From a virus, in the IMG/VR virus record IMGVR_UViG_3300046370_000620, positions 1 through 20,881 of that record: 20,881 nt of DNA, one strand, 5' to 3'. Position numbers and translations under genes: made by a program. Within the stretch, counting starts at the first letter, position 1. Each line of letters opens with the position of its first letter. The notes under the pieces are model-generated. The model did not search any database, was not told the DNA's origin, and worked only from the letters and a program-made list of their open reading frames with translations. Positions 4,002-11,084 of this stretch are shown one piece after another.

Positions 4002-4175
4002 CTATTTCTCCTGTTCTATATTTGGGTTATTATGATTTAAATTGATGTCGTGGGACTGGTGAGGATTGTCGTATGACTGTGCGAGCCAGAGGTAGTAGTC
4101 ATACTCGAGCTCTCCTGCCGGATGAATTCGAGTGCATCCGTCAGGCTCTGGAAGCTCCTCTCCTTTATTACCCAC
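4002..4175 (-). CDS. possible small protein overlapping 4037-4288 in another frame
   Basis: A GTG at 4175, with GAGG five bases upstream, opens a 57-aa frame whose C-terminal half (ELEYDYYLWLAQSY...) looks like a real protein. It ends two bases before the next gene's ATG and supplies that gene's Shine-Dalgarno. The frame stays open upstream to an ATG at 4265. It overlaps the 4037-4288 frame, whose own composition becomes poor (Ser/Thr/His-rich) exactly where this frame looks good. The two may be separate overlapping genes, or one gene split by a frameshift near 4110-4150. Confidence 0.4.
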   Translation of the reverse strand: MGNKGEELPEPDGCTRIHPAGELEYDYYLWLAQSYDNPHQSHDINLNHNNPNIEQEK

Positions 4176-4288
4176 TTCGCCTCGTCTAGCTCCGGCGAAA
4201 AAAGTAGTTGGATTATGTGACGATCCCCTGTCGGGGTCGTCACTTCTGTTTTGAATTGGTTGCATTTGAAAGTGTAAGAACCGCTCAT
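4037..4288 (-). CDS. small hypothetical protein, first gene of replication operon
   Basis: 83 aa from the ATG at 4288, or 89 aa from a TTG at 4306. Residues 1-60 look like a folded alpha/beta domain ending in a helix (SFQSLTDALEFIRQ). The last 24 residues are low-complexity and probably not selected as protein. The ATG lies inside one strand of a 14-bp inverted repeat (4278-4291 with 4348-4361), so its translation may be structure-controlled. No family recognised. Confidence 0.5.
   Translation of the reverse strand: MSGSYTFKCNQFKTEVTTPTGDRHIIQLLFSPELDEAKWVIKERSFQSLTDALEFIRQESSSMTTTSGSHSHTTILTSPTTSI
4217..4243. repeat. strong GC hairpin inside 4037-4288 frame
   Basis: GTGACGA plus CCCC on the left (4217-4228, one bulged T at 4224) pairs with GGGGTCGTCAC (4233-4243) around loop TGTC, giving 11 pairs. 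It is the first of a cluster of hairpins ending at 4435. Confidence 0.65.
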
Positions 4289-4435
4289 AGGTGTTTCATA
4301 GGGCAAATTATGAAAAAACCCGTTGCAGGATCTCCCTGCACACCATGCCTATGGGCGGTTCGTGTCTTCGTAACGAGCTGTGTTTCATAGAGGTAGACTA
4401 GTAACCCCGTTCTGGGTTCTCCCCAGACACCATGC
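4278..4435. ncRNA. two tandem covarying structured elements (candidate cis-RNA or origin)
   Basis: Unit 1: outer stem 4278-4291 with 4348-4361 (14 pairs, one U-G wobble if read on the plus strand) encloses hairpin TTTCATA/TATGAAA (4294-4300, 4309-4315) and hairpin TGCAGG-ATCTC-CCTGCA (4324-4340), forming a three-way junction. Unit 2 repeats the core: CCCGT (4406-4410), hairpin TCTGGG-TTCTC-CCCAGA (4411-4427), CACCATGC (4428-4435), preceded by TGTTTCATAG (4381-4390). The flanks CCCGT and CACCATGC and the TCTC of the loop are identical in both units, while three of six stem pairs differ with compensatory changes. This argues for selected structure in the leader of the replication operon. I match it to no known riboswitch or ribozyme. 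Candidate roles are attenuator/riboswitch-like leader or hairpin replication origin. Confidence 0.6.
4308..4388 (-). CDS. possible 26-aa leader peptide
   Basis: An ATG at 4388 inside the repeated CTATGAAACAC motif opens a 26-codon frame (begins MKHSSLRRHEPP, ends REILQRVFS) that runs through the unit-1 hairpin and stops at 4308, 20 bases before the ATG at 4288. No good Shine-Dalgarno is visible. If translated, ribosome position would decide which stems form. It may equally be a chance frame. Confidence 0.25.
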   Translation of the reverse strand: MKHSSLRRHEPPIGMVCREILQRVFS

Positions 4436-4469: not shown

Positions 4470-4745
4470 TCAGTTCCAAGCCCAGCAGTACGGAAGCTCA
4501 TTCAAACTCTCTACGAGTTCATGATCAGATTCATCCGCAGTAATAGGGAATGTAGGAAAAAGTCTTACTGGTTGAGGGTTACCGCCATCGTCAGCCATGA
4601 GTGGCACTTGAGCTTCAGTTGTAATCACTTGGTCGAGTAACTCGTCAAATGAGGCATCTACATCACTCTCGTTTCCGGTGAAAACATCAGACCAAAAGTC
4701 TTCTGGATGCTGATCGAAATCTAATTTTTGCTTCTGTATTTTCAT
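4470..4745 (-). CDS. small acidic hypothetical protein
   Basis: 91 aa from the ATG at 4745 (a GTG at 4757 would add four residues and overlap the upstream gene). The protein is acidic, with Asp/Glu-rich helical stretches and a tryptophan-rich C-terminus (YCWAWN). No domain recognised. The ATG is two bases after the upstream gene's stop (TGAGAATG), which favours this start and translational coupling. The region downstream holds the tandem hairpin elements. Confidence 0.6.
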   Translation of the reverse strand: MKIQKQKLDFDQHPEDFWSDVFTGNESDVDASFDELLDQVITTEAQVPLMADDGGNPQPVRLFPTFPITADESDHELVESLNELPYCWAWN

Positions 4746-4747
4746 TC

Positions 4748-4942
4748 TCAGCCCCACTTTCTGTTGGTCTTTAAGTAAGCTCTAAAATTGATGGGCCAAA
4801 TCTGAGGGTCTCTCTTGAGCCAAAAGTGTACCCACCCTCTTCCGACTTCATTATAAAGCTCCATTGTGTAACCCTTTTCGCCCGGCTTTTTGCCTTTCGA
4901 TTTTAGTGCGGTCATTAGTGATTTTAAAAATTTTATAAACAT
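4748..4942 (-). CDS. small basic hypothetical protein
   Basis: 64 aa, basic, with a Lys-rich N-terminus (KSLMTALKSKGKK) and an aromatic C-terminal half (WVHFWLKRD). An internal ATG at 4915 is a second possible start. No family recognised. It heads the short operon with 4470-4745 and lies downstream of the 11-bp-phased array at 5096-5146. A basic protein here might bind nucleic acid, but that is speculative. Confidence 0.5.
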   Translation of the reverse strand: MFIKFLKSLMTALKSKGKKPGEKGYTMELYNEVGRGWVHFWLKRDPQIWPINFRAYLKTNRKWG

Positions 4943-5095: not shown

Positions 5096-5146
5096 GGGCA
5101 TTGATAGCCCATTTTTAGCCCATTCACGACCCATTGCTTGCCCATT
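5096..5146. repeat. five-copy 11-bp-phased CCCATT array
   Basis: GGGCATT (5096), GCCCATT (5107), GCCCATT (5118), ACCCATT (5129) and GCCCATT (5140) begin exactly 11 bases apart, putting each copy on the same face of the helix. The segment AGCCCATTCACGACCCATT (5117-5135) recurs with one change at 7710-7728. Both arrays lie upstream of leftward early operons, so a shared regulator's operator or an origin iteron is likely. Confidence 0.7.
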
Positions 5147-10580: not shown

Positions 10581-11084
10581 TTATTCACCCGGCTCGACAT
10601 CGATTGCTTCGTTCTTGATCGACTCGAGCTCCTTCTGAACTTCGTCGATGGTCACTACTTTACGATGCTCGATGATGGTCGTGGCTTCGCCTTGATACTG
10701 TCTCTCCTTATCGGCGAGGATCCCGAAAGCGATTGGCAGCACTCCGACTGGAACTTTATCCTCATCGAGTGCTTGGATTATCTTCATGACACAAGCTTGA
10801 GCGGCATACGAGGTCAAGCCAGCGGTCAATTCTCGAACTGAATCGATGCTGCCCTTCTCTCTTTTCGCGATGGCACTCACAGTCTCTGGTGAGATCTTGA
10901 GCGACTTTGCTATTCTGGTCATTGGCTTACCTTCGCCTAAGAGCTGTACCGCGAGGGCATACTTTTTCGGATCCTTCTCGAATAAGGACTGACCCGTGTA
11001 AAGAGCGGGACAAGTCTCCTCAGGCGTTTGGAGCGGTGGAAGATTGTCTGGGATGATATTGATTCTCTTCTTTTTAGTTGGCAT
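10581..11084 (-). CDS. HTH protein, candidate small terminase subunit
   Basis: 167 aa. Basic start (MPTKKKRINI), then a helix-turn-helix at about 55-76 (MTRIAKSLKISPETVSAIAK), a helical middle (about 85-125) and an acidic C-terminal tail (VDEVQKELESIKNEAIDVEP type). N-terminal HTH, central oligomerisation helices and acidic tail is the plan of many small terminase subunits, which recognise the packaging site and activate the large subunit. It is adjacent to the large terminase but divergent from it, which is uncommon; a late-gene regulator is the alternative. Confidence 0.6.
   Translation of the reverse strand: MPTKKKRINIIPDNLPPLQTPEETCPALYTGQSLFEKDPKKYALAVQLLGEGKPMTRIAKSLKISPETVSAIAKREKGSIDSVRELTAGLTSYAAQACVMKIIQALDEDKVPVGVLPIAFGILADKERQYQGEATTIIEHRKVVTIDEVQKELESIKNEAIDVEPGE

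Follow-up and report, generated by a model that had tools for sequence, protein, structure and literature searches.

A phage RNA family built on a three-way junction and its possible role in transcript processing

Tandem elements in an early phage operon

The window, i.e. the whole 20,881-nucleotide stretch of viral DNA analysed here, carries in its left part a minus-strand early operon with a Holliday-junction resolvase, an exonuclease, small genes, two copies of a structured element, a primase and a helicase, and has its head genes on the plus strand. The element lies upstream of the primase and helicase genes, i.e. ahead of the replication operon as claimed in an earlier note on this DNA. 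Both of its 30-base cores, at 4319–4348 and 4406–4435, match the pattern described in that note exactly, whereas only 0.02 chance matches would be expected in the window according to shuffled sequence, even with up to three mismatches allowed. Stem pairs 2, 3 and 4 are altered on both sides (TGCAGG/CCTGCA in copy 1 versus TCTGGG/CCCAGA in copy 2), so that the three proposed compensatory changes are real. A repeat finder recovered the cores as 33-mers with 76% identity, along with a second common block, GTGTTTCATAG, at 4291 and 4380; cmsearch found no model matches in the window besides these two copies.

Copy 1 is closed by the 14-pair outer stem that had been assigned to it (P1; table 1). The P1 of copy 2 is weak and contains A.C mismatches, given which this copy may be degenerate. 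From the sequence, the next gene could start at the ATG inside the P1' of copy 1, which is in frame with the minus-strand ORF 4306–4037 of the ORF list; a start codon inside P1' is not a general feature of the RNA family. On the minus strand, ORFs of 87 and 89 aa overlap in different frames at 4002–4306; both are partly protein-like, and they may represent a pair of overlapping genes or a frameshift. The non-coding stretch 5099–5146, located upstream of the early operon, contains four copies of a 15-nt CATTGATAGCCCATT-like unit with an exact spacing of 11 nt, i.e. one helical turn, as possible iterons or an operator. A search for relatives of the window phage by way of its helicase found none.

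Table 1. Parts of the two elements and adjoining genes in the window (arms named in the RNA sense).
Feature	Position	Strand	Evidence or remark
Copy 1, full element including 14-pair P1	4278..4361	-	cmsearch 4281–4357, 77.3 bits, E 8e-19
Copy 1 P1 5' arm, including closing G 4348	4348..4361	-	pairs with 4278–4291
Copy 1 J1/2 junction CAUGGUG	4341..4347	-	AUGGUG invariant in 65 aligned type I members
Copy 1 P2 5' arm	4335..4340	-	P2 99% paired, 6/6 pairs doubly changed (65 aligned type I members)
Copy 1 pentaloop GAGAU	4330..4334	-	GAGAN in 214/216 members
Copy 1 P2 3' arm	4324..4329	-	P2 99% paired, 6/6 pairs doubly changed (as for 5' arm)
Copy 1 J2/3 junction AC	4322..4323	-	AC in 211/216 members
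Copy 1 P3 5' arm GGG	4319..4321	-	P3 pairing test
Copy 1 P3 3' arm CCC	4301..4303	-	P3 pairing test
Copy 1 linker UAU and conserved GAAACA (J3/1)	4292..4300	-	type I alignment
Copy 1 P1 3' arm, holds ATG 4288–4286	4278..4291	-	sequence
Copy 2 (tandem), with intact core but weak P1	4370..4444	-	cmsearch 63.5 bits, E 4e-15
Copy 2 core GCAUGGUG-UCUGGG-GAGAA-CCCAGA-ACGGG	4406..4435	-	pattern scan and cmsearch
Upstream gene, 95 aa, without family match	4470..4757	-	stop ~26 nt before copy 2
Candidate downstream gene, start inside copy 1 P1'	4037..4288	-	ORF list; alternative ORF 4265–4002 in other frame

Strand, fold and covariation of the RNA

The strand of the functional molecule can be read from its imperfect base pairs and its gene setting. 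Read on the minus strand, 216 distinct elements contain 53 G.U versus 4 A.C pairs in P2 and 106 versus 26 in P1, and among members from the first pattern scan the non-Watson–Crick stem pairs are C-A on the plus strand and G.U on the minus strand. The upstream gene lies on the same strand as the element in 110 of 127 cases and on the opposite strand in 17. Together, the G.U bias and this orientation identify the functional molecule as RNA of the window minus strand and rule out a plus-strand RNA.

The type I consensus reads P1, NAUGGUG, a P2 of 6 bp, GAGAN, P2', AC, P3, a 3-nt linker, GAAACA and P1', with P1 being long and variable. In an alignment of 65 type I sequences, 92.4% of the paired cells are indeed paired and the covariation score is 0.849, dropping to 0.10–0.19 when the structure is slid by one to three columns; all 10 modelled P1 pairs and all 6 P2 pairs are doubly changed. 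The length of P2 is equally strict: at least 120 contigs match the pattern with 6 bp, none with 7 bp and a single one with 5 bp, so that chance adds very little to the matches. P3 is also variable, most members having GGG/CCY. Where GGG is lacking (65 type I members), the four inner positions of P3 pair in 69, 83, 91 and 86% of cases if the linker is 3 nt long, but mostly in 20–60% at other linker lengths. In tandem second copies, P3 reads AGG/CCU, AAC/GUU, GCC/GGU or UGGCC/GGCCA, and A-G takes the place of the flanking G17-A35. The three-way junction noticed earlier is thus correct, yet its third helix is P3 (in the window GGG 4319–4321 with 4301–4303) and not the hairpin TTTCATA/TATGAAA first assigned to it, which is outside the consensus and would occupy the conserved GAAACA strand. 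A variant of type I, found in loci L003, L063, L135 and others, has an extra AA between GAAACA and P1' and misses the closing G10-C72 pair.

A second subtype (type II), with an AUAGAG-type core and GAACA, was reached by way of DNA similarity in two Microcystis phages, and its pattern matched 63 contigs. Its 36 aligned members form the same helices as type I with a covariation score of 0.911. A few elements are hybrids, e.g. L113, which combines AUAGUG with UAAACA. Homologues with additional compensatory changes are abundant, and selection on structure, proposed from just the two copies in the window, is upheld by covariation in both subfamilies. Nearly all conserved bases sit in the junctions and in one loop, with stem sequences being free; small ribozymes and aptamers show the same distribution, i.e. 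conserved bases in junctions or loops and free stems.

Distribution and genomic placement

The first IMG/VR pattern scan matched at least 120 contigs, nearly all with a complementary 6-bp stem, and pattern and covariance searches of viral contigs together yielded at least 216 distinct members. These 216 are a sample of the matches, listed in file order, and give no estimate of frequency; members from related contigs were de-duplicated by sequence only, and since pattern searches preset the conserved bases, any assessment of conservation at free positions is limited to scans that had left them free. Most of 42 phage records (19–98 kb) hold one copy and a few have two or three; 26 more records examined for copy number again mostly have one, even at 95–187 kb. 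Tandem pairs like that of the window occur in L003, L051, L077, L113, L205 and L218. The related phages G044, G046 and G064 (the records of L203, L210 and L241) have two type II copies ~22–24 kb apart, not one.

Named matches come from Opitutaceae, Akkermansiaceae, Planctomycetaceae and Acidobacteria records, and the isolate Geminisphaera colitermitum TAV2 has two copies. Among sampled bacterial genomes, however, the element is rare: it was present in 3 of 289 from the phylum of G. colitermitum, in 2 of 246 from that of the Planctomycetaceae and in 2 of 247 from that of the Acidobacteriaceae, with strict filters and with each tally including the centre genome already known to hold it. A pattern match in a genome-collection record of Chryseolinea (L123) lacks a stem and is due to chance. 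A search for plasmid copies by DNA similarity found none. Overall, the element looks phage-borne.

Within phage genomes, it tends to follow closely upon a gene. P1 starts 2–10 nt past a same-strand stop codon in 81 of 105 cases with a nearby stop, and 96 of 216 elements, but only 83 of 1080 random places, are within 12 nt of such a codon. Terminators and tRNAs are both enriched directly behind it. Terminator-like hairpins are found downstream of 24 of 213 elements versus 37 of 1065 controls. A same-strand tRNA (Arg, Lys, Gln, Met or Asp) starts within 80 nt downstream of 11 of 213 elements, a minority stemming partly from related contigs; these tRNAs mostly begin 3–8 nt after P1', and tRNAs are sparse overall, with only 41 in 3.08 Mb of loci. 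L113 shows the order element, tRNA-like sequence, element. Its tRNA-like sequence, uncalled by ARAGORN, lies between a type I and a hybrid element (10829–11076, minus strand). An exception to the same-strand rule is L314 (9198–9351), in which two tRNA-Phe genes directly follow the element on the opposite strand.

Mechanical ORF calls for 120 cases place the next gene in the same direction as the element in 76 and convergent to it in 44. Adjacent genes are unrelated, encoding endolysins, RusA, single-strand binding protein, HU, capsid, Erf or nucleotide kinases. A common partner protein sought in the neighbouring genes was not found, the commonest family, by eye a PD-(D/E)XK-like nuclease, being present in 31 of 151 loci.

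Candidate functions and comparison with known RNAs

In its helices, strand, breadth and placement, this is a well-supported RNA family; its function we infer. Tentatively, we take it to be a self-acting, probably self-cleaving RNA which may process transcripts. The element would be a small phage RNA of ~70–110 nt, co-transcribed with phage genes and folding into a three-way junction, in which P2 with its GNRA-like pentaloop is predicted to pack onto the conserved core (AUGGUG, AC and GAAACA or, alternatively, AUAGAG, AC and GAACA). This compact core would act on the very RNA that contains it, self-cleavage being the likeliest mode, and would thereby process the transcript between the upstream gene and a tRNA, a terminator or the following gene. 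The place at which the window's tandem pair would do so is between the 95-aa gene and the genes toward primase and helicase. With still more reserve, we suggest that it may represent a new class of self-cleaving ribozymes with a three-way junction and two core variants, widespread among phages of several bacterial phyla and serving mRNA and tRNA-transcript processing.

Since no neighbour family is shared and adjacent genes are unrelated, an RNA that needs no partner is the economical assumption, and the lack of a partner nearby, hosts from several phyla and junction-packed conserved bases together favour an RNA acting alone or on a universal host machine. In favour of transcript processing are the intercistronic placement and the tRNA-like sequence sandwiched in L113. 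The element has no recognisable cleavage site. Moreover, the single copy in most records is at least as compatible with a trans-acting RNA as with self-cleavage, and a stable RNA or a bound 3'-UTR element would likewise be expected to sit at 3' ends and ahead of tRNAs.

A stable trans-acting sRNA derived from a 3' UTR, which would bind a host machine of the RNA polymerase or ribosome type or act as a decoy for defence, is somewhat unlikely but comes close behind self-cleavage, because for such a role one copy per genome suffices, as mostly seen even in the largest records. Its ends could be set by the RNase P cut before a tRNA or by a terminator, one or the other of which can be next downstream, and its core would be expected to stay invariant whatever the neighbours, as it does in very diverse phages. 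Tandem copies, however, are unneeded for a role in trans, and the conserved bases are packed into junctions, with no open seed region. Considerably less probable is a cis-acting element of the 3' UTR or intercistronic region that sets transcript ends or stability, either by binding a conserved host protein or by resisting exonucleases. The fixed position just past stop codons, the enrichment of terminators downstream and the convergent next gene in about one third of cases would all agree with it, but many copies precede same-strand genes or tRNAs, the element is usually single per genome and, for a protein site used across many host phyla, it is very strictly conserved.

The earlier suggestion of a cis-regulatory RNA thus keeps some plausibility, but not easily as a riboswitch or leader in control of the gene that follows. 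This would fit the window, where the ATG in P1' would be sequestered, as well as an aptamer-like core with two variants; yet downstream genes share no common function, the neighbourhood is diverse and has no protein in common, tRNAs and terminators adjoin the element, and the convergent genes (44 of 120 cases) do not fit, which makes such a switch very unlikely. Finally, a single-stranded DNA hairpin serving as replication origin, primase site or recombination site—the origin used by the primase having been the note's other suggestion—is most improbable and already largely refuted, since despite the window copy's place in the replication region and the usual single copy per genome, pairing shows a strong one-strand G.U bias (53 versus 4 in P2, 106 versus 26 in P1) instead of no strand preference, orientation follows upstream-gene transcription (110 versus 17) and many copies adjoin lysis (endolysin), head (capsid), RusA or tRNA genes or a terminator.

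Several narrower ideas were discarded. A leader peptide starting in AUGGUG fails as P2 can supply stop codons (e.g. AUG GUG CUG UAG in L001), and a stimulator of readthrough fails as the distance to the stop varies and leaky stops are not in excess (TAA 43, TGA 34, TAG 28). GAAAC ends many CRISPR repeats, but the core does not vary between phyla and lies within P1, which is at odds with a CRISPR-repeat mimic. An antitermination site, as the nutR-like layout might suggest, fits poorly with copies that stand at operon ends opposite a convergent gene.

What is new here is the RNA family and its fold. In line with the earlier note, which had matched the element to no known class, a comparison of the window with the 4227 families of Rfam 15 gave no match at the gathering threshold. 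At E values up to 10, the window element, L308 and L250 had only chance-level matches, for the window element a single unrelated one, and no description of the family was found in open-access literature. New natural classes of ribozymes or regulatory RNAs are rarely found. If cleavage were shown, the function itself would be of a known kind. The RNA being small, rigid, phage-borne, easy to synthesize and available in hundreds of members, any of the roles considered—catalysis, binding of a host machine or control of transcript ends—can be addressed at the bench with short RNAs.

Among known systems, theta ribozymes, i.e. HDV-like ribozymes adjoining phage tRNAs, are similar in being small structured phage RNAs, many by viral tRNAs and others isolated among genes, that were likewise found by motif searches of viral databases (PMC10879173). 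They form the HDV double pseudoknot and sit with their cleavage site at the tRNA 3' end, whereas the phage element forms a three-way junction 5' of tRNAs, has no HDV match in Rfam and shows covariation supporting other helices. The hammerhead ribozyme shares the three-way junction, conserved bases confined to junction strands and a GAAA stretch; its core of CUGAUGA ... GAAA ... NUH around three stems, however, is absent from the type I and type II alignments, which lack the CUGAUGA strand and have another order of conserved strands, and Rfam gives no match.

T4 stable RNAs C and D (species 1 and 2) are also small phage RNAs from a tRNA cluster, but are 119–139 nt long, lie on the 3' side of the tRNAs and match neither family covariance model (L356). 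The put antiterminator RNA of HK022 is likewise a hairpin-containing phage RNA present once or twice per genome; the phage element, in contrast, is often located at operon ends, and HK022 24000–40751 (L355), searched as a whole since put is unannotated there, had no match to the family models. In lambda, boxB/nutR is a hairpin that lies between a gene and a terminator and has a GNRA-like pentaloop; both this type of loop and the order of gene, hairpin and terminator recur here. To such a hairpin, however, the phage element adds a junction, P1, P3 and invariant junction strands, and beyond its terminator there is often a convergent gene.
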